From Methanolobus psychrophilus R15 (lineage in GTDB: Archaea; Halobacteriota; Methanosarcinia; Methanosarcinales; Methanosarcinaceae): a DNA stretch of 64,000 bases. Shown here piece after piece: positions 6,889-59,657 of the stretch (its first letter is position 1; each line of letters opens with the position of its first letter). Both the position numbers and the translations under genes were made by a program. The DNA lies in NCBI GenBank assembly GCA_000306725.1, contig CP003083.1:2902042-2966041 (forward strand), given 5' to 3'. The notes under the pieces were generated by a model, which saw only the letters and a program-made list of their open reading frames with translations, was not told the origin of the DNA and ran no database searches.

Positions 6889-8379
6889 ATGACTGAGAAG
6901 GAAGTAATATCCGCACTGAAGTATGTTTCGCGCATGAAAGCTGAGTTCATGCTGTCCGATATGCGAAATCACATCAAGAGCGAGATGTCTGTGCAGGACA
7001 TTTACAGGGCAGTACATGCCTCATTCATGGACCTGGGGCTGGACGCCATCCCGGTGGAAGGGGATTTCAGGATAGTCCGGGCACCTAAAGGTAATATAGA
7101 ACTGACCGGTCCGGAGAAGGAAAAGAATGAAATGTTCTTCCAGTCTCCCGGTGTTTCCAGGAAACTTGAAAGGCTAGTGGAACAATACTTGGAGAAGAAG
7201 ACAGGGAAAAACTGGGACGACCCTATTATCATTGAAAGGATAAGAAGAGCAGTGCTCTCCCAGAAAGCAGATTACTGGAAGGAAGGCAAGTCCCGAAAAA
7301 TAACATATGATAAAGGCTACGATGTTGTTGGATACCTGGCATACCAGTTTCCTGTGTATTTCGTGCAGTTCCAGCACATCCTGTACAGGATGGCAAAAGA
7401 AGGTCTGCTCAAGACACGCATGAAGATACTGGATGTCGGAAGCGGGCCGGGAACAGTGCCGCTTGCTGTGACAGACCTCTACAACAGGCTGGACGACCAT
7501 ATGGCAAGCATCTATTCAGTGGAAATGTTCGATGAGAACCTGGAAGCCTACAGGTTTATCGTGCCCCAGTATGCTGCAATAAAATCAAGGATATTAGTGG
7601 AAGAGCCTATAAAGGCCGATATCAAGAAACTGGATATTGACCAAATACCTGACAAACTTGACCTGATAGTATTCTCAAACGTCCTTAATGAGATCAAGGG
7701 AATGACCATTGAGCAAAAAGCGGATGTTGTTAAGAAGTTATCCGAGAAACTTACACCTGAAGGTAACATAATCATCATCGAGCCTGCTGACAAAGTCAAC
7801 TCCACACAGGCACGAAAGCTGATCCTTGCTCTCAAAGGCATGGGCCTTAGCATCCACAGTCCCTGCTCTTTTATCTGGGGTAGCGGATGCAATCCGGAAG
7901 AATGCTGGAGCTTTGAGCAGCAGGGCGACATCATGCCTACCAGACTTATGAAAAAACTGGCTGAATGTGACGAGCCCTATCGCTATATAAATACCGACAT
8001 AAAATACACTTATGCCATCATGCGTAAGGACAAGCTTACAAGAATAAAGTTCAGGGTGCCCCCTAAAGCGAAATTTGCAAGACTGTCCAAGCTTGAAATT
8101 CATACAGGTAAGCGTATCAATGTGATCGCTTCCCTTATGTCCGGGGACCTTGGAGACGGAAAGTACAGCCTGTATAAGATCTGCGACGGTACTTCAGTAA
8201 AACAGGTATATGCAGTCATCCCGTTAAGCAGTCTGACCCTGGAGAATAAGCTGCTCAGGGAAACAAAGTACGGGTCTGTCCTTGCTATCGAGAACGTGCT
8301 TGTCAAATATAATGAGGCAAATGATTCTTACAACCTGCTGGTTGGAAAGGGAACTGTCGTGAGCCTGGTAGAAGAATAA
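6889..8379 (+). CDS. Rsm22-like SAM-dependent methyltransferase
   Basis: About 500 residues. The Rossmann motif I is MKILDVGSGPGTVPLAV near residue 185, followed by an acidic strand (YSVEMFDENLEA) and LIVFSNVLNEI. A cysteine cluster, SPCSFIWGSGCNPEECW near residue 330, resembles the metal/Fe-S cysteines of mitochondrial/bacterial Rsm22 proteins, which act on or with the small ribosomal subunit. The C-terminal 110 residues look like a small beta domain. The start is uncertain: ATG 6889 begins with MTEKEV, GTG 6871 lies right after AGGAG (6864-6868) but with only two bases between, and GTG 6835 is also open. Ribosomal association is inferred from the family. Confidence 0.75.
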   Translation: MTEKEVISALKYVSRMKAEFMLSDMRNHIKSEMSVQDIYRAVHASFMDLGLDAIPVEGDFRIVRAPKGNIELTGPEKEKNEMFFQSPGVSRKLERLVEQYLEKKTGKNWDDPIIIERIRRAVLSQKADYWKEGKSRKITYDKGYDVVGYLAYQFPVYFVQFQHILYRMAKEGLLKTRMKILDVGSGPGTVPLAVTDLYNRLDDHMASIYSVEMFDENLEAYRFIVPQYAAIKSRILVEEPIKADIKKLDIDQIPDKLDLIVFSNVLNEIKGMTIEQKADVVKKLSEKLTPEGNIIIIEPADKVNSTQARKLILALKGMGLSIHSPCSFIWGSGCNPEECWSFEQQGDIMPTRLMKKLAECDEPYRYINTDIKYTYAIMRKDKLTRIKFRVPPKAKFARLSKLEIHTGKRINVIASLMSGDLGDGKYSLYKICDGTSVKQVYAVIPLSSLTLENKLLRETKYGSVLAIENVLVKYNEANDSYNLLVGKGTVVSLVEE

Positions 8380-8545
8380 GTATTCTCTATCCATTTAGGC
8401 AGACACAAAGACCACGTATATGTGGCTGCAAAGTAACCGATGGTAAGGGTATCGAAGATAACTGTATATACTAGAAGATTTGATTTACCTACCTCTGAGT
8501 GTGCATCAGTAAGCACATGTACAGAAGGTTAAAAACGGTGCCTGT

Positions 8546-9310
8546 ATGCTTGAAATTGATCCCACTTCCATTCTGATCAGATATAACGTCAAACTTGAAA
8601 AGGAGATGTCACCCGACGACGTGGCAAGAGAGTTTTTTCCGGAAGATGAGCTGATCCGCGATATTGTTGAGGCTGTTTTTGAAGGAGATGAGGACGAGGT
8701 GCTTGTTGCCCTTCAGGAAGCCATGGACCAGGGGAAGGATGCGATTCAACTGATAGATGATGCCCTTATGGCAGGGATGGGCATCGTTTCAAAATTATAT
8801 GACGACGGATTGCTTTACCTGCCGGATGTCATGATATCGGCGCAGGCAATGACCGATGGAATAGAGTATTGCAAGCGTGCCTCCGACCGCAGCCATGAAT
8901 TCAAGGCAAAGGTAGTATCCTTTGTAGTGGAAGGAGATGTCCATGATATCGGCAAGAAGATACTGACAGTATTCCTGAAGTCCAACGGTTATGAGGTCAT
9001 AGACCTTGGAAGTGATGTCCCGGTAGATGAGGTCATCAGCGCGGTGATGGAGCACAGGCCCATCATGCTTACAGGCACAGCCCTTATGACAACTACCATG
9101 TATTCTTTCAGGGAGATCAAGGACCGCCTTCATGAGAATGGCATTGACATTCCCTTTATATGCGGTGGCGGTGCCGTGACCCAGGATTTTGTGACCCGCT
9201 ATGATATCGGGGTTTATTGCGATGACGCGGCAATAGTGCCAAAAATAGCCGATCAGGTGTTGAACAATGCAACTATCGAAGACCTCAGGGAACAGTTCCA
9301 CAGGAACTGA
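8546..9310 (+). CDS. mtaC: Methanol-specific corrinoid protein MtaC (orphan copy)
   Basis: 254 residues, the same length as the mtaC at 12928 and collinear with it. Residues 1-115 form the helical cap; the cobalamin-binding half has DVHDIGKK with the cobalt-ligand His133, the TGTALMTTTMY loop and CGGGAVTQDF. MtaC carries the methyl group from methanol (via MtaB) to coenzyme M (via MtaA). Unlike the usual mtaCB arrangement no mtaB follows; the next gene is a PAS/GAF protein. It may use the MtaB encoded at 13705 or a partner elsewhere. The 165-base upstream gap holds two small hairpins (CCAC/GTGG at 8412-8425 and TGTGC/GCACA near 8503) but no strong ribosome site. Several residues differ from the second copy, so it is a diverged isoform. 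Confidence 0.9.
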   Translation: MLEIDPTSILIRYNVKLEKEMSPDDVAREFFPEDELIRDIVEAVFEGDEDEVLVALQEAMDQGKDAIQLIDDALMAGMGIVSKLYDDGLLYLPDVMISAQAMTDGIEYCKRASDRSHEFKAKVVSFVVEGDVHDIGKKILTVFLKSNGYEVIDLGSDVPVDEVISAVMEHRPIMLTGTALMTTTMYSFREIKDRLHENGIDIPFICGGGAVTQDFVTRYDIGVYCDDAAIVPKIADQVLNNATIEDLREQFHRN

Positions 9311-9330
9311 TCATCAAAGGTTACCAGGAC

Positions 9331-9418
9331 TTAATGTTGCTCACATCCAAAGACAGATCCTTGTGTGTGTAGATTGGATTGAAGGAAGCGTCCTATATTA
9401 GATGTGAGCAATTAACAT
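9331..9418. other. Long inverted repeat enclosing the leader-like RNA element
   Basis: TTGCTCACATC (9337-9347) and GATGTGAGCAA (9401-9411) are perfect 11-base complements separated by 53 bases. The enclosed segment holds the 17-base element also found in the mtaCB leader. Just outside the arms AATGTT and AACATT can extend the pairing imperfectly. As RNA this would be a long closing stem around an inner hairpin. Confidence 0.5.
9366..9394 (+). promoter_or_regulatory. Shared leader element plus hairpin, copy 1
   Basis: TGTGTAGATTGGATTGA (9366-9382) is followed directly by a small hairpin AGGA-AGCG-TCCT (9383-9394) and then TATTAGAT. The same 17 bases, a different hairpin and a similar TAATAGAT tail occur in the mtaCB leader at 12861. 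Here the element lies between the orphan mtaC and the PAS/GAF gene. Confidence 0.55.
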
Positions 9419-9537
9419 TTGTTTACCTAGTATTTAATCTCTCTTTTTGGCTAAAGATTTTTAATCTGGCCAGAAGGAAGAACTAAGAGAAAACAGTAAA
9501 AGGAGATGTCTCTATCAGTATCAAAAACAGTGCATAC

Positions 9538-12336
9538 ATGGAAACAGATGCATCTGGCAGGGACATGATTATAGGTGTAGCAGAACCAAGCCACCGGGAA
9601 AGCGACCTTATTGGCGGAGAAAACAGCTTTTTCAGGGATGTGTTTGACGCAATGCAGGAACCACTTGCTGTATTGGACAGCACTCTGTGTATCGTCTATG
9701 CAAATCAGTGTTTTTACACACTTTTCAAGGCAAGGCCAGATGAAATATTAGGAAAAGACCTATCTGATGTGAGAGGTGCCCGCTGGAACTTACAGGAGCT
9801 AAGGCCACTGCTGGAGGACATGTTAAAAAGTGGTGCTATCTGTGAAAACATCAGGATAGGCTGCAACCATCCTACTCAGAGTAGAGCATTTTTGCTCCAT
9901 GCCCGGAGTCTGCCAGCCAATGGGAAACCCATCCAGCGAATTCTTCTTAGGGTGGAAGAGGCTGCAGTACAGAATGACCGGCGTGAGCCTGGTCTATGTG
10001 ATATGAACTATTTTGACCTGGTGGAGCAGGGCAATGATGGCATTGTGATCCTTCAGGATGGCGTTTGCATATTTGCAAATTCCAGGTTCTCTGAACTTAC
10101 CGGCTACTCCGTGGAAGAAAACACTGGCAGACAATTCCTGGAATATTTGCCTGATACATATAAGCGGATGGTTTCCAAGAGGTTCCAGAAGGTTCTAAGG
10201 GACATGAAAAGTCCGGGCCGCAACAATGAGGTTGAACTGCTCACAAAAGCAGGCGACTCATTCTCTGTAGAGATGAGTTTCTCCTATATAGACTGCGAAG
10301 AAAAGCCCTCGATAATGCTCAATATAAGGGATATCAGAGAGCGTAAGGCATCTGAAGCCGAACTCAAGGCTTCCAGGGAGAAGTACTCCACACTTGTCGA
10401 GGAAAGCAATGACGGCATTATCATTATTCAGGAAGGGACACTCAAGTTCACAAATCGTAAGTTCTCTGAACTTACAGGTTATTCCAGGGAGGAACTTAGC
10501 AACCGGCAGTTGACAGAGTATGTTCCTGATATATATCGCCGGATGCTTTCCGGCAGACTCCGAAAAGTCCTCAGGGACATGCGCAGCCTTCGCCATAATA
10601 ATGAGGTAGAGTTTCTCACAAAAAACGGAGCCCTTCTGCCCGCTGAGATCGGGCTCTCGTTCATCAGCCACGAAGGACAGCCTTCGGTCATGATAAACAT
10701 CAGGGATATCTCCTATAGGAAACGTGCAGAAGCGGAGCTGAGAGATTCAGAGAAGAAGTACTCCACCCTTGTTGAGAAAGGTAATGACGGCATTATAATT
10801 GTGCAGGATGAAGTGCTGGTATTCTCAAATATGAAGTTCTGCGAAATAAGCGGTTTTTCAAAGGAAGAACTACTCAGGAGACCTTTTGAGGATTTCCTCC
10901 AGGCTGACTATAAGCGTGTGGTGATGAAGAGGTTCAGAAGGAGCCTGGAAAAGAACCGTGATGCTCCTATGAAATATGAAGTGGAGTTGCTTTCAAAGGA
11001 AGGTATCAACACCCCTGCTGAGATCAACTCTTCAGTAATAGAGCATGATGGAAAACCTGCTGTCATGGCTATCATCAGAGATATTACGCACCTTAAGAAT
11101 AAGGAAAAAAGGTTGCTTGAACTGATAGAAGTACAGAAGATAATGGAGTCTGTAATAAAGAGCAGTCCTGCCGTCATCTTCTTCTGGAAGCCCGAGGATG
11201 ACTGGCCAGTGGAGTTTGTATCAGAGAACATATCACAGTTTGGATACAATGCCGAGGACTTCATATCCGGTAAGCTGCAGTATGGTGATGTAGTTCACCC
11301 TTCGGACATAAGCAGGCTTTCCACCGAGACTGAACAATGGTCCCGGGACGTGGAGAATCTCTCCTATGAATACCGCATACTTACAAGATCGGGTGAAGTG
11401 CGATGGGTTGATGAAAGATCTGTTGTCAAGCGTGATCCGGACGGTAACGTGCAATATGTGCAAGGTATCGTGGTCGATATAACCGAGCGCAAGAACGTGA
11501 AGAACTTCATGCATATAGTATCTGATCCCAAAGAGATTTTCGCCCCGGTAGGAGATCCGGGAGATATGTTCAACCAGTTGCTTGAGTTCGCTACCCAGGT
11601 AGAAAATATGGATTCCGGAGCCTTGTATCTCATCGATGAAACCACTGATGATCTTAATCTTGTTGCACATAAAGGTTTCTCGCCGGATTTTATCAAAACC
11701 ATAAGACATCATCCGGCTGGTTCCATACATAAAAGAGTAATGATGACAGAGTATCCTCTCTATACCAGGTACTATGAACTCAATTCCATGATACCCGGCA
11801 ATAAGCCTATTAAAGAGAGACTGGAAGCCACGGCGATCATTCCCGTAAAACACAATGAAAAGCTGGTAGCCATATTGATGCTTGCATCCCACAGTTCTTT
11901 TGAGATTTCGTTCAATGCTCGCAGCACTCTTGAAATAATAGCTGCACAAGTCGGTCCTATGATTGGGCGTATGAGGGAGCAAGTGGACACCCATAAGGAT
12001 ATGAGGAATCTAAAGGTCATTTTTGAAATGATAGAAGAAATCTTATTTGTGATCGATAATAATGGCTGCATCCTCTATGCTAATCCGTTTGCATGCAAGT
12101 GCTTTGATTATGCAGAGGAAGAGCTGAAAGGTATGAATATTCTTAAATTGCATCCGCAGAACAAGCTACTTGAAACTGCCCCTGTTATTGCGGATCTGAT
12201 TGCAGGCAGGGTGTCTGTGCATAACATTCCTTTTGAGGCAAGATCTAAAAAGCTCATCCCTGCCGAAACACGGTGCACTCTGGGACAGTCGGATGATAAG
12301 AACATCGTAATTTGCCTTTCAAGGGTAGAAATGTAA
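9538..12336 (+). CDS. Multi-PAS/GAF signalling protein without kinase domain
   Basis: 932 residues. Order: one degenerate PAS (about 38-145), three closely similar PAS units of about 125 residues (beginning YFDLVEQGNDGIVIL, YSTLVEESNDGIIII, YSTLVEKGNDGIIIV; near 158, 282, 408), a PAS with a PAC tail (530-655, ending VVDITERK), a GAF domain (660-815) and a final PAS (825-932). No HisKA, HATPase or receiver domain is present and the protein ends inside the last PAS, so it must work through protein contacts or a partner. The three inner units are recent internal duplications. It lies between two mtaC genes and downstream of the shared leader element, which suggests a role in sensing for methanol gene control; that is inference. 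ATG 9538 is the first in-frame start after a stop at 9484, though no clear ribosome site precedes it. Confidence 0.8.
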   Translation: METDASGRDMIIGVAEPSHRESDLIGGENSFFRDVFDAMQEPLAVLDSTLCIVYANQCFYTLFKARPDEILGKDLSDVRGARWNLQELRPLLEDMLKSGAICENIRIGCNHPTQSRAFLLHARSLPANGKPIQRILLRVEEAAVQNDRREPGLCDMNYFDLVEQGNDGIVILQDGVCIFANSRFSELTGYSVEENTGRQFLEYLPDTYKRMVSKRFQKVLRDMKSPGRNNEVELLTKAGDSFSVEMSFSYIDCEEKPSIMLNIRDIRERKASEAELKASREKYSTLVEESNDGIIIIQEGTLKFTNRKFSELTGYSREELSNRQLTEYVPDIYRRMLSGRLRKVLRDMRSLRHNNEVEFLTKNGALLPAEIGLSFISHEGQPSVMINIRDISYRKRAEAELRDSEKKYSTLVEKGNDGIIIVQDEVLVFSNMKFCEISGFSKEELLRRPFEDFLQADYKRVVMKRFRRSLEKNRDAPMKYEVELLSKEGINTPAEINSSVIEHDGKPAVMAIIRDITHLKNKEKRLLELIEVQKIMESVIKSSPAVIFFWKPEDDWPVEFVSENISQFGYNAEDFISGKLQYGDVVHPSDISRLSTETEQWSRDVENLSYEYRILTRSGEVRWVDERSVVKRDPDGNVQYVQGIVVDITERKNVKNFMHIVSDPKEIFAPVGDPGDMFNQLLEFATQVENMDSGALYLIDETTDDLNLVAHKGFSPDFIKTIRHHPAGSIHKRVMMTEYPLYTRYYELNSMIPGNKPIKERLEATAIIPVKHNEKLVAILMLASHSSFEISFNARSTLEIIAAQVGPMIGRMREQVDTHKDMRNLKVIFEMIEEILFVIDNNGCILYANPFACKCFDYAEEELKGMNILKLHPQNKLLETAPVIADLIAGRVSVHNIPFEARSKKLIPAETRCTLGQSDDKNIVICLSRVEM

Positions 12337-12927
12337 AAGTTCAGATATCCTGTCTTTTTTGCTCACGTTAAGTCAACTCTGGTTTTTTACAAGAGTAAAT
12401 ACTTTTTCTTAGAATCTATATCACGGGTTTCCTAATATGAGTAAATTCTTTTTTGAGCTGGAAATGACTTTTCGAATTATATTATATAAATGTTTCTTTT
12501 GAAGTTGCTCCTATATTACACATAGAAATTACAATCTCCATCAAAACAGCATCATTGGACTGGCTGATTACTACGAGATAGTAAATTATATACAATAAGC
12601 AATACATTACTTTAAATAAGTCTACAAAATAATGCATCATTTATACATATATAAAAACATTTTCCTATCCTAAAAGTGAATTATTATACATGTAGAAAAA
12701 TAGTAATTCAAAAAAGCATACAATAGGATGTTTTCTAGATAAAATAATCATAATATACATATTTTATATGATGCATTACAGTTTTATATAGGCATTGACC
12801 TTCCGATACACTTATATATGAAAAAAAGATTTTGAGTAAGGAGGTTCGAGACGGACCTATTGTGTAGATTGGATTGAGCTTGTTTCAAGCTCAGCTAATA
12901 GATCAATAAATTGAAGGAGGTATAGAA
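12337..12927 (+). promoter_or_regulatory. Long AT-rich upstream region and leader of mtaCB
   Basis: 591 bases without a convincing gene. The most likely promoter is the TATA-like CTTATATATG at 12811-12820, which would place the transcript start near 12838-12845 and give a leader of about 85 bases. A second TATA-like stretch TTTTATATAG lies at 12782-12791. The leader contains AAGGAGG at 12838-12844, the shared 17-base element and a hairpin, then the mtaC ribosome site GAAGGAGGTA. Methanosarcina mtaCB operons are known to have regulated long leaders; the specific regulator here is not visible. Confidence 0.6.
12861..12892 (+). promoter_or_regulatory. Shared leader element plus hairpin, copy 2 (mtaCB leader)
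   Basis: TGTGTAGATTGGATTGA at 12861-12877 is identical to 9366-9382. It runs into a perfect hairpin GAGCTTG-TTT-CAAGCTC (12876-12892), then TAATAGAT and TCAAT. Stem sequence differs from copy 1 while the position is kept, as expected of a conserved RNA structure. It lies 36 bases before the TTG start of mtaC. Confidence 0.6.
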
Positions 12928-13692
12928 TTGTTAATAGTAGACAAAGAAGGTATCCTCATAAGATACAATGTTAAGATGGAAAAGTCAATGACCCCTGAAG
13001 ACGCAGCAGCGGAACTCTATCCAAAGGATGAGCTCAACCGTGCAATTGCAGAGGCAATATTTGAGGGTGAAGAGGATGATGTAATCGAGGGTCTCGAGGC
13101 AGCAATTGCAGCCGGGAAAGATCCGATATCCCTTATTGATGACTCACTGATGGTCGGTATGAAAGTCGTCACCGAACTGTACGATCAGGGTGTAATCTTC
13201 CTTCCAAACGTCATGATGTCCGCAGATGCAATGCTCGAAGGTATCGAGTTCTGTAAAGCAGAGGCAGGATCATCACCAAAGCCAAAAGGAAAGGTAGTTG
13301 TCCACGTTGCCGAGGGTGACGTTCACGACATCGGAAAATCAATCGTAGCAGCACTTCTCAGGGCAAACGGCTATGAAGTTGTCGACCTTGGACGTGACGT
13401 CCCGGTAGACGAGGTCATTGCATGCGTAAAGAAAGAAAGCCCAATGATGCTCACAGGTACAGCATTGATGACAACCACCATGTACGCATTCAAGGAAGTT
13501 AACGACAGACTCCTCGAAGCAGGCATAAGAATGCCATTCCAGTGTGGTGGCGGAGCAGTCAACCAGGACTTCGTTTCAACCTACGAACTCGGAGTATATG
13601 GTGAAGAAGCAGCAGACGCACCAAAGATGGCAGATGCAATACTGGCAGGAAAAGGCCTGGCAGAATTAAAAGCAACATTCCACAAACACTAA
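12928..13692 (+). CDS. mtaC: Methanol-specific corrinoid protein MtaC
   Basis: 254 residues. The start is TTG 12928, fixed by the strong GAAGGAGGTA ribosome site seven bases before it. Domains as in the family: helical cap (about 1-115) and B12-binding Rossmann half with DVHDIGKS (cobalt ligand His133), TGTALMTTTMYAF and CGGGAVNQDF. It accepts the methyl group of methanol from MtaB and passes it to coenzyme M through MtaA in the cytoplasm. mtaB follows after 12 bases, the standard mtaCB order. Codon use is strongly biased (frequent GCA, CTC, AAG), as in highly expressed methanogenesis genes. Confidence 0.96.
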   Translation: MLIVDKEGILIRYNVKMEKSMTPEDAAAELYPKDELNRAIAEAIFEGEEDDVIEGLEAAIAAGKDPISLIDDSLMVGMKVVTELYDQGVIFLPNVMMSADAMLEGIEFCKAEAGSSPKPKGKVVVHVAEGDVHDIGKSIVAALLRANGYEVVDLGRDVPVDEVIACVKKESPMMLTGTALMTTTMYAFKEVNDRLLEAGIRMPFQCGGGAVNQDFVSTYELGVYGEEAADAPKMADAILAGKGLAELKATFHKH

Positions 13693-13704: not shown

Positions 13705-15084
13705 ATGGCAGTCAAGAAATTCACAACAATGGCATACAGCAATGCTGATGAGATGGTATTCGGTCGTGCAAAGAGCCCTGTAAAGGCAGGTCTGGGTCTG
13801 GAGATCGGTGCAGGTTACACAACCGCCGAGGTTAACTACGCTCCAAGACCGGAAGCCGGAGAGACAAAAGAGAAACTCGTCAACGAGTACCAGAGGATTA
13901 CAAGGGACATCATGGCAAGGATGGTCCAGGTCGGTTTCCCATCAGTAGTACTTGAGACAGAGCACGTCCAGCAGATGACCAACAACCCAACATGGGGAGC
14001 AGAGGTCGCACACGCACAGAAGACCATCATGGAAGAATACCATGAGGAATACGGCATCAAGTGCGCACTCAGGCACACCCCTGGTGACGTCAGGGAAGAC
14101 AAGGACTTCCTCCAGCTCAGAGGCGACAAGTACAACGTCGTCATGGAATCATTCGAAGCAGTAGCAGATGCAGGCGCAGACCTCCTCTCCATTGAATCAA
14201 TGGGTGGTAAGGAAATCTTCGACTACGCTGTTCTCAGGAACGACATCCCAGGCATGCTTTACGCAATCGGCTGCCTCGGTAGCATGGACATGGAATTCCT
14301 CTGGCAGGGCATTGCAAAGGTTGCACAGCAGAAGAATGTGACCCCAGCAGGTGACACAGACTGTGCACAGGCAAACACTGCAATGTTCATTGCAGGTGGC
14401 CTCCTTGACAAGAACCTCGCACACACCCTCGCGATCATCGCAAGGTCACTCGCAGGTGCAAGGACACTCTCCGGATACGAAGCAGGCGCAACTGGTCCAG
14501 GAAAAGACTGTGGTTATGAGAACATCATAATCAAGGGAATCACCGGTATGCCAATGGCATTCGAAGGTAAGACCTCAACCTGTGCACACTCTGACGTTAT
14601 GGGTAACCTCATCATGCAGTGCTGTGACCTGTGGTCCAACGAGTCAGTCGAATACCACGCTGAGTTTGGTGGTACAACTGTACAGTGCTGGTCCGAGTCC
14701 CTCAGCTACGACTGTGCACTCATGAACACTGCACTCAAGTCCGGTAATGAGAAGATCCTCAGGGACCTCCTCATGGCATCCGACAGGTTCAGAGACCCAC
14801 AGTCCTACATCCTTGCATACGACAACGCATACAAGGTCGGCCAGGCAATCGTCAAGGACGGAAACGACATCTACCTCCGTGCAAAGAACGCTGCAACAGA
14901 ATGCTGCAACCTGCTAAAGGGCGCAGAGGGTCTTGAGATGACAAAGTTCGAGACCAATGCACTTAACAAGGCAGCCGCAGAACTTGCAGCTCTGACCTCA
15001 GACTCAGAGAAGTTCATGAGCGACTGCATGGAGAAGTACAAGGCAGAAGTAAAGGTATTCAAGCCAGAGAACTACGCTCTCTAA
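13705..15084 (+). CDS. mtaB: Methanol:corrinoid methyltransferase MtaB
   Basis: 459 residues, the family length. The three zinc ligands known from the Methanosarcina barkeri enzyme are present at the same numbers: Glu164 (LLSIESMGG), Cys220 (AGDTDCAQ) and Cys269 (GPGKDCGYE). It activates methanol at the zinc site and methylates the cobalt of MtaC, the first step of methanol methanogenesis. GAGGTGAGCTAA just before the ATG is a good ribosome site. The coding bias is strong, suggesting high expression. A UUCG-capped hairpin follows the stop as a likely transcript end. Confidence 0.97.
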   Translation: MAVKKFTTMAYSNADEMVFGRAKSPVKAGLGLEIGAGYTTAEVNYAPRPEAGETKEKLVNEYQRITRDIMARMVQVGFPSVVLETEHVQQMTNNPTWGAEVAHAQKTIMEEYHEEYGIKCALRHTPGDVREDKDFLQLRGDKYNVVMESFEAVADAGADLLSIESMGGKEIFDYAVLRNDIPGMLYAIGCLGSMDMEFLWQGIAKVAQQKNVTPAGDTDCAQANTAMFIAGGLLDKNLAHTLAIIARSLAGARTLSGYEAGATGPGKDCGYENIIIKGITGMPMAFEGKTSTCAHSDVMGNLIMQCCDLWSNESVEYHAEFGGTTVQCWSESLSYDCALMNTALKSGNEKILRDLLMASDRFRDPQSYILAYDNAYKVGQAIVKDGNDIYLRAKNAATECCNLLKGAEGLEMTKFETNALNKAAAELAALTSDSEKFMSDCMEKYKAEVKVFKPENYAL

Positions 15085-45705: not shown

Positions 45706-46917
45706 ATGGATTTAAAAAAAATAAGTATTAGTCATAAAATATTGTTAATATCTTTGTTATTAACTATATTACCCGTAACTATTGTTGGTTTTTATGCTTA
45801 CGAGCAAACAGAAGCTGGTACTTGGTCTCAATTAGAAGAGCATTTGAATGACCAATCATTCCTTGAAAAAGTTTATATAGAGTCTACTTTTTCCCTTGCA
45901 CAAGATAAAGTAAATAGTGACTTAGGAGTTGCAAGGGCCGTTTTTTACTCTAACGGTAATCCTGAAATTGTTGATGGACAAATGATACTAGGAGGAGATT
46001 ATGTTGTCAACAATAATTTTGAGATTGTCGATAATGTCAAGAATATGGTAGGAGGGACTGCTACTATATTTCAGGTACTGGATGGAGAGGCTGTAAGAAT
46101 CTCTACTAACGTTATTATTGATGAGGGAGAAAGAGCAGTCGGTACCAAAGTGTCGCAACCAGTGTATGAGACAGTCGTCAACAAAGGTGAAACGTTCTAC
46201 GGAAGGGCATGGGTGGTCAATGCTTGGTATCTGACTGCATACGAACCGATCAGAAATAGTGCTGGTGAGATTATAGGTATTCTTTACGTTGGTGTTCTTG
46301 AAGATCCATTTATCAGTACGATAAAGAATCATATGGGTGGAATTGTTGTAGGTGAGACTGGATATGTCTATATAATGGATTCAGAAGGAAATCTTGTACT
46401 TCACCCTATTATGGAAGGTGAGAATATCTATGAGCATGACTTTGTAAAAGAGATTATCAATAACAAAGAAGGTATTATTAATTATGAGTGGCAAGGTCGC
46501 GAAAAAATTGCAGGCTACACGTATTATGAACCAAATGATTGGTATATAGTATCAAATACTTATTGTGAAGAGTTTGCAGGTCCTCTACTGGCAATTAGGA
46601 ACAGTTTAATAATAGCTGTTTTAGTCTTTGTAATTCTTGGTGTTTTAGCTTCATTCCTTCTAAGCAAATCTATTTCTGATGGAATTCAAAAAATAGTTAC
46701 TGAATTTGATGACATAACCAATGCTACTCTTCAGGGTAAACTAGACAGGAGAGCAAATATTGATGTAGGTATTGATTTAGAGGCGATACCCAGGGGTTTC
46801 AATCAGGTACTGGATGCTGTGAAAGAGAATGATGAAAAGCTCCAGGCATTCATAGACAATGTCCCTGTTGGGATGTTCCGTACTATAGTGTTCAACGCAA
46901 CTTACTACACGTATTAA
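45706..46917 (+). pseudogene. Cache-HAMP sensor, 5' part of an IS-disrupted kinase gene
   Basis: The first 393 codons are host sequence: transmembrane helix (about 14-32), a large extracellular double-Cache domain (VARAVFYSNGNPEIVDGQ; GRAWVVNAWYLTAYEPIRN; GETGYVYIMDSEGNLVLHP), a second helix (about 300-322) and HAMP, then the start of a PAS (AFIDNVPVGMFRT). At 46886 the IS630 begins and the last residues come from the element. The rest of the PAS and the kinase core appear after 48443. TCTGGAGTATGCTAG precedes the ATG. Confidence 0.8.
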
Positions 46918-47982
46918 TGTTTATCTTATCTTATGGCGGGGAAAGAACAAATTCTGATTGACCGAAAGGTAATTCTCGACGAGATTAACTATTTGATCAC
47001 ACACGAGAACAATTCAAGAGTGTTGAAAAGGCTCTATTTTGTTAAATTTAGATATTTAGGGGATTCTGTAGAAGAAGCTGCTACTAAAGTAGGAGTGACT
47101 AAGAAAACAGGATATTGCTGGCAAGAAAGTTGGAATAAAGGCGGCTATGCCGCCTTAATGCCAAATTTTGGCGGAGGTAGGAAATCCAAACTTACTGATG
47201 AACAAAAAAAGGAATTAAGAGCTTTGTTGGAAAATAAGGATTACTGGACTACAAGAGAAGTCTGGAAGTTAATAAAGGAAAAATATGGCGTAGAATATTC
47301 AGAGAAACAAGTAGGAGTTATACTTCACAGTTTTAACATGTATCACTCAAAGCCATATCCCCTTGACTACAGAAGACCTAAAAACGCTGAAGAGATCTTA
47401 AAAAAAACTTACCGAAGCAATTCCAAAAAATATTGGTCAAGATGAGCAGTATATCATAGGTTTTCTGGATGAATCTTCACCACAAACAAAAGCAAACACG
47501 CAAAGATTATGGTCATTTAAAAAACCGTTGATAATAAAAAATACGGATTACGTTAAAGCAAATGCATTTGCGTTTTATTCGATCAACGGGAACAGTATCA
47601 TTGATTTTATGAAAAGCTCAAAAACAGAAGATGTGTGTGAATTCCTGGAAAAAATTGTAGAGCAAAACCCAGGGAAAAGAATAATTCTTGTTCTCGATAA
47701 TGCAAGATCGCATCATGCAAAGAAAACGATAAGTAAAGCGAGAGATTTAAAAATAACACTTGTGTTCCTACCACCTTATTCACCTGATCTAAATCCAGTA
47801 GAATTTGTCTGGAAAACAATCAAAAGAGAAGTGTCAGTCAAATTTGTCAAATCAAAAGAACATTTGAGGAATATTATCAAAATGGAATTTATGAGGATAG
47901 AGAGCTCATTATCGTTTGCAAAAAAATGGATAGAAACATTTAATGCACAAATAAAAAGTGTGAATTGTTGAGTTAGGGACTA
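46886..47982 (+). mobile_element. IS630-family insertion sequence, copy 1
   Basis: 1097 bases from TAGTGTTCAACGCAAC to GTTGAGTTAGGGACTA. The ends are imperfect inverted repeats (right end inwards TAGTCCCTAACTCAAC) flanked by the TA target duplication (46884-46885 and 47983-47984). A near-identical 1097-base copy lies at 58535. It interrupts the sensor-kinase gene beginning at 45706. Confidence 0.9.
46933..47971 (+). CDS. IS630-family transposase in two frames
   Basis: Frame 1 (46933-47445) has the helix-turn-helix part (DSVEEAATKVGVTKKTGYCW) and the linker to YSEKQVGVILHSF. At the A8 run near 47400-47407 the downstream frame is +1 (or -2): LTEAIPKNIGQDEQY, FLDESSPQTKAN (first catalytic Asp), then frame 2 (from 47528) with VLDNARSHHAKK (second Asp) and PPYSPDLNPVEFVWK (Glu). 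The first Asp is read only if the shift occurs. Both copies in the window show the same run and shift, so it is a property of the element. About 345 residues when joined. Confidence 0.85.
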
Positions 47983-48168
47983 TAGTTTCACACGCTTGTT
48001 AGACGAGGTTGGCGAGCATTTAAAGCCAACTGAGTCTTGCAAGCGGGGCAAAATTTACACACGCCCCGTCCATTAGTCAAGAGGGCGAGCAAGCGAGCCA
48101 AAACGGCCTGAATTATGAGAATAATTGCCTTGAAAAGTGTTATTCCTCATAGGGAGGAATGCATTTTA

Positions 48169-50018: not shown

Positions 50019-50092
50019 TGGGCCCGAGGAGATTCGAACTCCTGACCCCCGCCGTGTAAAGGCGATGTCATAACCGGCTAGACCACGAGCCC
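50019..50092 (-). tRNA. tRNA-Val (anticodon UAC)
   Basis: The acceptor strands GGGCTCG and CGGGCCC pair (one G-U). The anticodon loop TTTACAC sits between CGCC and GGCG and gives UAC. The T loop is GTTCGAATC. The 3' end is followed by encoded CCA (50018-50016). A TATA-like stretch read as AATATATAC on the minus strand lies at 50152-50163, giving a leader of about 35 bases. Confidence 0.95.
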
Positions 50093-58520: not shown

Positions 58521-58534
58521 TACTCTGGCAACTA

Positions 58535-59631
58535 TAGTGTTCAACGCAACTTACTACACGTATTAATGTTTATCTTATCTTATGGCGGGGAAAGAACAAA
58601 TTCTGATTGACCGAAAGGTAATTCTCGACGAGATTAACGATTTGATCACACACGAGAACAATTCAAGAGTGTTGAAAAGGCTCTATTTTGTTAAATTTAG
58701 ATATTTAGGGGATTCTGTAGAAGAAGCTGCTATTAAAGTAGGAGTGACTAAGAAAACAGGATATTGCTGGCAAGAAAGTTGGAATAAAGGCGGCTATGCC
58801 GCCTTAATGCCAAATTTTGGCGGAGGTAGGAAATCCAAACTTACTGATGAACAAAAAAAGGAATTAAGAGCTTTGTTGGAAAATAAGGATTACTGGACTA
58901 CAAGAGAAGTCTGGAAGTTAATAAAGGAAAAATATGGCGTAGAATATTCAGAGAAACAAGTAGGAGTTATACTTCACAGTTTTAACATGTATCACTCAAA
59001 GCCATATCCCCTTGACTACAGAAGACCTAAAAACGCTGAAGAGATCTTAAAAAAAACTAACCGAAGCAATTCCAAAAAATATTGGTCAAGATGAGCAGTA
59101 TATCATAGGTTTTCTGGATGAATCTTCACCACAAACAAAAGCAAACACGCAAAGATTATGGTCATTTAAAAAACCGTTGATAATAAAAAATACGGATTAC
59201 GTTAAAGCAAATGCATTTGCGTTTTATTCGATCAACGGGAACAGTATCATTGATTTTATGAAAAGCTCAAAAACAGAAGATGTGTGTGAATTCCTGGAAA
59301 AAATTGTAGAGCAAAACCCAGGGAAAAGAATAATTCTTGTTCTCGATAATGCAAGATCGCATCATGCAAAGAAAACGATAAGTAAAGCGAGAGATTTAAA
59401 AATAACACTTGTGTTCCTACCACCTTATTCACCTGATCTAAATCCAGTAGAATTTGTCTGGAAAACAATCAAAAGAGAAGTGTCAGTCAAATTTGTCAAA
59501 TCAAAAGAACATTTGAGGAATATTATCAAAATGGAATTTATGAGGATAGAGAGCTCATTATCGTTTGCAAAAAAATGGATAGAAACATTTAATGCACAAA
59601 TAAAAAGTGTGATTTGTTGAGTTAGGGACTA
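58535..59631 (+). mobile_element. IS630-family insertion sequence, copy 2
   Basis: 1097 bases, same ends as copy 1 and the same TA duplication (58533-58534, 59632-59633). Only a handful of base changes separate the copies, so transposition is recent. Confidence 0.9.
58582..59620 (+). CDS. IS630-family transposase in two frames, copy 2
   Basis: Same layout as the transposase at 46933: frame 1 58582-59094, A8 run near 59049-59056, frame 2 from 59177 to 59620. Differences from copy 1 are few (NDLITH for NYLITH, AAIK for AATK, TNRSN for TYRSN, SVIC for SVNC). The catalytic triad is complete only after the +1/-2 shift. Confidence 0.85.
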
Positions 59632-59657
59632 TAATTATCGTGAATTATTCACATGTG

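Follow-up and report, generated by a model that had tools for sequence, protein, structure and literature searches.

Two structured RNA elements with a common sequence core at the methanol genes of Methanolobus psychrophilus and its relatives

Introduction

The methanol-gene region of Methanolobus psychrophilus R15 has the same 17 bases at two positions, one in the leader of mtaCB and the other between an orphan mtaC gene and a PAS/GAF sensor gene, and this raises the question of whether the repeat is accidental or belongs to a signal common to both sites. We analyzed it within a 64,000-nucleotide stretch of the genome (the window, to which all unprefixed coordinates refer; the genes and elements of the two sites are all on its + strand) and in the genomes of relatives. 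The explanation we favor, to which we give roughly an even chance (about 0.5), is that the methanol regulon has one RNA signal acting in cis, that the two sites represent two forms of it (class A and class B), and that a single trans-acting reader recognizes both. Such a signal, conserved in at least seven methanogen genera, situated on the Shine-Dalgarno sequence (SD) of a key gene in the path from methanol to methane and linked to one sensor gene, would if present provide post-transcriptional control of methanol use for methanogens outside Methanosarcina.

To our knowledge, few examples of structured RNAs with a cis-regulatory role have been described in Archaea. A search of the whole window with Rfam 15 gave nothing above the gathering threshold other than a tRNA (50019–50092), and a permissive search of 8200–13000 gave only three sub-threshold matches, one of them opposite class B, where the antisense strand matched the miRNA MIR4387 (20.9 bits versus 84). 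We found no description of the element in the titles and abstracts of the openly licensed PMC literature.

The 17-base repeat

The 17-mer TGTGTAGATTGGATTGA is present at 9366–9382 and at 12861–12877, exact in both places as a first-pass annotation of this DNA had reported, and the locations given there, the second copy being in the mtaCB leader and the first downstream of the orphan mtaC and upstream of the PAS/GAF gene, are also correct. These are the sole sites in the 64-kb window at up to three mismatches, and the only ones on either strand of the 3.07-Mb genome at up to two. Taken alone, the repeat is not above chance in 64 kb, a repeated 17-mer being present in 15 of 60 order-1 random windows matched in composition (mean 0.38); it is the comparison of sequences across genomes that makes it solid. 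Of the 27 Methanolobus genomes (G000 and G039–G064), 23 have both copies with order and orientation unchanged, 3.4–3.95 kb apart and with 0 or 1 mismatch. The four genomes without the pair are G051 and G052, in which no mtaC passes the cut-off, and G047 and G048, which have one mtaC. A simple recent duplication, which the annotation had named as an alternative, is contradicted by this retention in 23 of 27 genomes and by the presence of class B in seven genera (see below).

In most Methanolobus the two sites are identical at 17 of 17 positions, which would suit a small antisense RNA pairing with the 17-mer at both. There is a precedent for sRNA masking of a ribosome-binding site in a methanogen methyltransferase network, namely sRNA162 of Methanosarcina mazei, described as a trans-acting antisense RNA on the mRNA of an ArsR-type regulator (PMC3510493). 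The likeness is in RNA-level control of ribosome binding in the switch between methanol and methylamines, whereas here there are two cis elements with a common core. However, no further site on either strand of the genome has 15 or more of the 17 matches, so no long complementary RNA appears to be encoded, and we regard an antisense RNA as highly improbable.

Seven stretches of viral contigs contain the exact 17-mer; the flanks of four were compared, had no likeness to class A or class B, and the matches are taken as chance. Two-mismatch matches outside Methanolobus and Methanosalsum were rejected, the flanks examined having neither of the structures described below (P1 or H1/H2).

Class B and its enclosing helix

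The first copy of the 17-mer is part of a larger element (class B, 9337–9411) between the orphan mtaC (8546–9310) and the PAS/GAF gene (9538–12336), in which a helix of about 11 bp, P1, encloses two cores that are almost fused. The 5′ arm of P1, TTGCTCACATC (9337–9347), pairs with the 3′ arm GATGTGAGCAA (9401–9411). Core1, GATTGGAT (9372–9379), is inside the 17-mer and is near-invariant among 39 sequences from five genera, and core2, GAAGGAAG (9381–9388), follows it, with AAGGAA after core1 in all 39 alignment rows. The annotation had proposed a small AGGA/TCCT hairpin here, which is present in only three of the 39 homologous sequences and thus is not conserved; the string TATTAGAT that it placed after the hairpin belongs to the far larger P1, which it missed, and opens the 3′ arm of that helix.

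The 39 sequences were aligned by sequence alone and P1 was derived from the alignment with RNAalifold. Of the 390 P1 cells in the alignment, 94.1% are paired, and 38 show a change on both sides. Slid controls reach at most 42.8% paired and nine such cells, and shuffles average 84.7% and 12.8, with none of 500 reaching either real value. Examples of compensatory change are GCUC/GAGC versus GUUC/GAAC and CAUC/GAUG versus CACC/GGUG, and Methanohalobium builds P1 from different pairs (GGUUCCCAUCU/AGAUGGGAACC). The two arms are separated by 40–70 nt.

Within the 3′ arm (9402–9407 and its homologues) a start codon is followed immediately by a stop, as AUG-UGA or GUG-UGA, in 19 of the 39 sequences; 12 others have AUG-AGA, six have other pairs, and two have no start codon in the expected place. 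This start-stop pair after core2 may be a consequence of P1 rather than a translated feature. Class B has no conserved open reading frame at the usual SD distance.

A T-rich stretch or TATA-like box, TATTTAATCTCTCTTTTT (9431–9448), lies between class B and the PAS/GAF gene, and similar stretches follow class B in other Methanolobus and in Methanomethylovorans; judged by its letters, TATTTAATCTCTCTTTTT is either a candidate terminator of a short class B RNA or a candidate promoter of the PAS/GAF gene. In Methanomethylovorans there is a TATA-like box 30–38 nt before P1 in three of three cases, so the element may begin its own transcript there. Five of the nine class B elements examined have no such box just upstream.

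Class A in the mtaCB leader

The second copy of the 17-mer is in the leader of mtaC, which codes for the methanol corrinoid protein (12928–13692) and is followed by mtaB (13705–15084). The element here (class A, about 12842–12930) has, in order, a hairpin H1, core1 GAUUGGAU, a second hairpin H2, an A+U-rich stretch and core2 GAAGGARG, and core2 is the SD of mtaC. In the window H1 is AGGTTCG-aga-CGGACCT (12842–12858), core1 is again GATTGGAT (12867–12874, inside the 17-mer), H2 is GAGCTTG-ttt-CAAGCTC (12876–12892), and core2 is GAAGGAGG (12913–12920). AAGGARG is present in 30 of 31 alignment rows, with AGAGGAAG in the remaining one.

The GAGCTTG/CAAGCTC hairpin of the annotation is H2, and it is real: in 16 Methanolobus sequences all 112 cells are paired, and three of the seven pairs are changed on both sides, in eight cells. 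Sliding H2 by +1 comes near the real helix on the covariation score only (0.263 versus 0.280). H1 is seen in folding and in shuffle tests. In an alignment-free test of 41 distinct leaders, one of them an mtaA leader (L207), 25 score above 95% of shuffles for H1 and 32 for H2; the gapless score used forbids a mismatch, and several of the failures are single mismatches in a stem. Core1 itself is partly paired in many predicted folds. The annotation's claim of a conserved RNA structure with covarying stems before methyltransferase genes is supported.

A TATA-like box of mtaCB, CTTATATA, is at 12811–12818, and core1 is 53–57 nt downstream of such a box in nine of nine leaders examined, from which we infer that the mRNA begins near H1, the predicted transcript start being just upstream of it. 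There are two TATA-like boxes about 30 nt apart before this leader (12782–12790 and 12811–12818), and a second box 28–30 nt upstream of the first is seen in seven of nine leaders from several genera.

By eye, the 3′ strand of H1 can pair with the SD (CCUU with AAGG) in Methanolobus leaders. We rejected sequestration of the SD by this strand as a general mechanism; the pairing has no counterpart in the Methanococcoides and Methanohalophilus leaders examined, so a simple two-state switch is not conserved. In 14 class A leaders folded singly, no common alternative pairing of the SD was seen.

Class A and class B might alternatively be riboswitches whose core serves, in two scaffolds, as the direct binding site for a small molecule from methanol metabolism (methanol, a corrinoid or coenzyme M). 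A conserved and structured core does lie by the SD in the leader of a pathway gene, and such a mechanism would make a regulator protein unnecessary. However, the core is short, the scaffolds are wholly different (an enclosing helix and flanking hairpins), no conserved mutually exclusive structure was apparent in the singly folded leaders, and the constant neighbor of class B is a sensor protein; we think a riboswitch distinctly unlikely.

The class A element is absent from three of three other mtaC copies examined (L160, L161, and L162). A hairpin with core1 is present in mtaA leaders of Methanohalophilus (6/6) and Methanosalsum (2/2) and in none of six in Methanolobus. In Methanolobus, mtaA is instead preceded by another strongly conserved sequence, CCAATAGTTTTATATC ... 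GAGAAGGATTCATTATG (L288–L292 and L306), which lacks the class A core.

Distribution of the two classes

We searched 111 Methanosarcinaceae genomes with a covariance model for each class. The class B model (R1; 39 training rows, strong matches at E ≤ 5.8e-5) gives 53 sense matches in 51 genomes and seven genera: Methanolobus (23/27), Methanococcoides (11/11), Methanohalophilus (7/8), Methanomethylovorans (4/6), Methanosalsum (3/3), Methanohalobium (2/2) and a metagenome-assembled genome (MAG) of the family, g3 (1/1). Neither the two Methanohalobium genomes nor this MAG of another genus are represented in the training set. There are no strong R1 matches in the genus groups g13, g5, g6, and g14. 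When the search is widened to 185 genomes of the order (the family included), the only matches outside the family are weak ones in G122 (E 0.006 and 0.02, on both strands), and these are taken as chance.

The class A model (R2; 31 training rows, strong matches at E ≤ 1.1e-7) gives 47 strong matches in 45 of the 111 genomes; 31 of the matches are in its training set and 16 outside it. The covariance search that had been suggested thus yields further matches, and all 47 abut an mtaC start. The genomes are from Methanolobus (23), Methanococcoides (11), Methanohalophilus (7) and Methanomethylovorans (4); R2 gives no strong match in Methanohalobium or the g3 MAG, and the 30 g13 genomes, which we take to be Methanosarcina, have no strong match to either class. 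The next R2 matches begin at E 4.6e-4. One weak match (G073, E 0.002) is the mtaA leader of a Methanosalsum with a hairpin, core1 and AAAGGAAG. Two others (G065:C2:33725, E 0.004; G067:C36:3856, E 0.0005) are before a membrane-protein-like gene at loci where a PAS/GAF paralogue adjoins trimethylamine genes, do not have the AGATTGGA core, and were not counted; a third is in G100 (E 0.008).

The strong matches of each model occur in one context only and on the sense strand of the downstream gene. This is relevant to whether the two sites could be DNA operators for a transcription factor, such as one of the Msr type. Both belong to one regulon, and in class A the distance from core1 to the TATA-like box is near-fixed. 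An operator requires conserved sequence and has no need of compensatory stem changes, yet these are found in both P1 and H2; furthermore, 40–70 nt lie between the P1 arms, strong matches are always on the sense strand, the SD is inside the core, and the five class B elements noted above have no TATA-like box just upstream. An operator therefore seems very improbable. The Msr regulators that control mtaCB in Methanosarcina are described as transcription factors in PMC5112694. They resemble the present case in controlling methanol methyltransferase genes, and differ in that the signal here is in the transcript and that strong class A or class B matches are lacking from the 30 g13 genomes.

A shared core in two scaffolds

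What the two classes have in common is the core (GAUUGGAU ... GAAGGARG) and not a hairpin. The cores are on either side of H2 in class A and nearly fused inside P1 in class B. The idea that both copies have the same hairpin in the same place is not borne out, copy 1 having the enclosing P1 and copy 2 the flanking H1 and H2; the proposed pairing of CAAT with ATTG is likewise not generally found in the 25 leaders and elements that were folded. R2, which was not trained on class B, weakly picks class B in 11 of 23 Methanolobus genomes (E 0.03–0.46), indicating that the two share sequence.

Within a genus, the core variants mostly change in step in the two classes. In Methanohalophilus, six of six genomes compared (L153, L154, L155, L156, L243, and L250) have GATTGGAG both in class B and in the leader of their mtaC, Methanococcoides has GATTGGATC in both classes, and Methanolobus has GATTGGATT in both except for single class B sequences (GATTGGATA in L214 and GACTGGATT in L042). 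Three Methanomethylovorans genomes have GATTGGATC in both classes, and G069 differs, with GATTGGATA in class B and GATTGGATT in class A. Position 4582 of L153, called class B by a loose rule, has no class-B-type P1 and was dropped from this comparison; the same rule missed class B in L158, L198, L213, L217, L221, and L266, whose genomes have an R1 match. In-step change is what a shared reader would produce, and gene conversion between the sites could produce it too.

An element for transcript stability or processing, with 5′-terminal and intercistronic hairpins that govern how long mta transcripts last, for example in the cold, would need neither a core common to two scaffolds nor in-step changes in it. 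Nonetheless, with the TATA-like box 53–57 nt before core1, the transcript would open with H1, and class B lies between cistrons in operonic loci. PMC5378194, on differential RNA-seq of Methanolobus psychrophilus, cites work on another cold-adaptive methanogen in which long 5′ UTRs of mtaA and mtaC are reported to help stabilize the mRNA in the cold; these are leaders of the same genes, and the passages cited differ in describing no shared element, core or covariation. We consider stability or processing alone unlikely.

The PAS/GAF gene and gene order

The constant neighbor of class B is the gene for a multi-domain protein with several PAS domains and a GAF domain. No recognized output domain was found in the window protein or in the seven other PAS/GAF proteins scanned. 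Of the 51 class B genomes, 50 have an orthologue at E ≤ 6.2e-166 that shares contig and strand with class B, and no genome without class B reaches this value; the profile was built on nine of these proteins, and the threshold was chosen once the list was known. The exception is G069, where the contig, of 3.5 kb, ends close to class B.

The orphan mtaC precedes class B in Methanolobus, and the next gene on the downstream side is PAS/GAF. Outside Methanolobus the usual order is mtaA, a RamA-like gene, a G3E/CobW-like GTPase gene, class B, PAS/GAF and mtaC(B), class A being found at an additional mtaCB or at mtaA; the RamA-like and G3E/CobW-like names are presumptive and come from sequence resemblance. 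A PAS/GAF paralogue is also found near trimethylamine-methyltransferase-like genes in L342 (G000:C1:1655000-1668000), as it is in Methanomethylovorans (L338, L339, and L341). The 10-base words common to the regions upstream of the PAS and mttB genes at these paralogue loci are all A+T-rich, and thus the class A/B pair was not found at the trimethylamine loci.

A possible mechanism

Class B keeps core2 with no conserved open reading frame after it and the mtaC leader has core2 on its SD, and core2 is thus probably read by something other than the ribosome. Together with an mRNA start near H1, this favors a trans-acting reader that gates the SD of mtaC, and one regulator probably controls both the methanol genes and the sensor gene through the structured RNA signal. 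We envisage that a single factor, most likely an RNA-binding protein, would recognize core1 and core2. On the mtaCB leader it would compete with the ribosome at the SD or, less likely, recruit it. On class B it would bind without protein translation being started, and class B may then feed back on the PAS/GAF gene or, as a decoy, titrate the factor. The circuit's sensor would likely be the PAS/GAF protein, and this protein may also be the factor. The limit of this explanation is that the covariation of P1 and H2 fits control of translation, mRNA stability or processing alike. With two scaffolds and one core, a search for the reader is directly doable.

In bacteria, the CsrA/RsmE proteins are paired with the decoy RNAs CsrB/RsmY. 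The likeness is in a GGA motif over the SD with a second GGA upstream (AAGGARG in core2 and UUGGAU in core1 of the class A leader) and in a second RNA that could titrate the reader; it is a resemblance in how the parts would work only, and differs in that there is one class B site here and not many repeats. CsrA itself was rejected as the reader, PF02599 being found in none of 40 relatives (the own genome included) in a search whose control matched in three of 14 known genomes. By this analogy, an independently arisen archaeal counterpart in which a sensor-linked RNA-binding protein, perhaps the PAS/GAF protein, blocks the SD of mtaC through core1 and core2, with class B, whose single loop has both cores and no gene to translate, as decoy or autoregulatory site, is conceivable, and we regard it as an unlikely version of the shared-reader explanation.

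Other repeats in the window

Elsewhere in the window there are near-identical segments of about 1.1 kb at 46882–47984 and 58531–59633. Each has two consecutive open reading frames (46933–47445 and 47528–47971; 58582–59094 and 59177–59620), and the segments are probably two copies of one insertion sequence.
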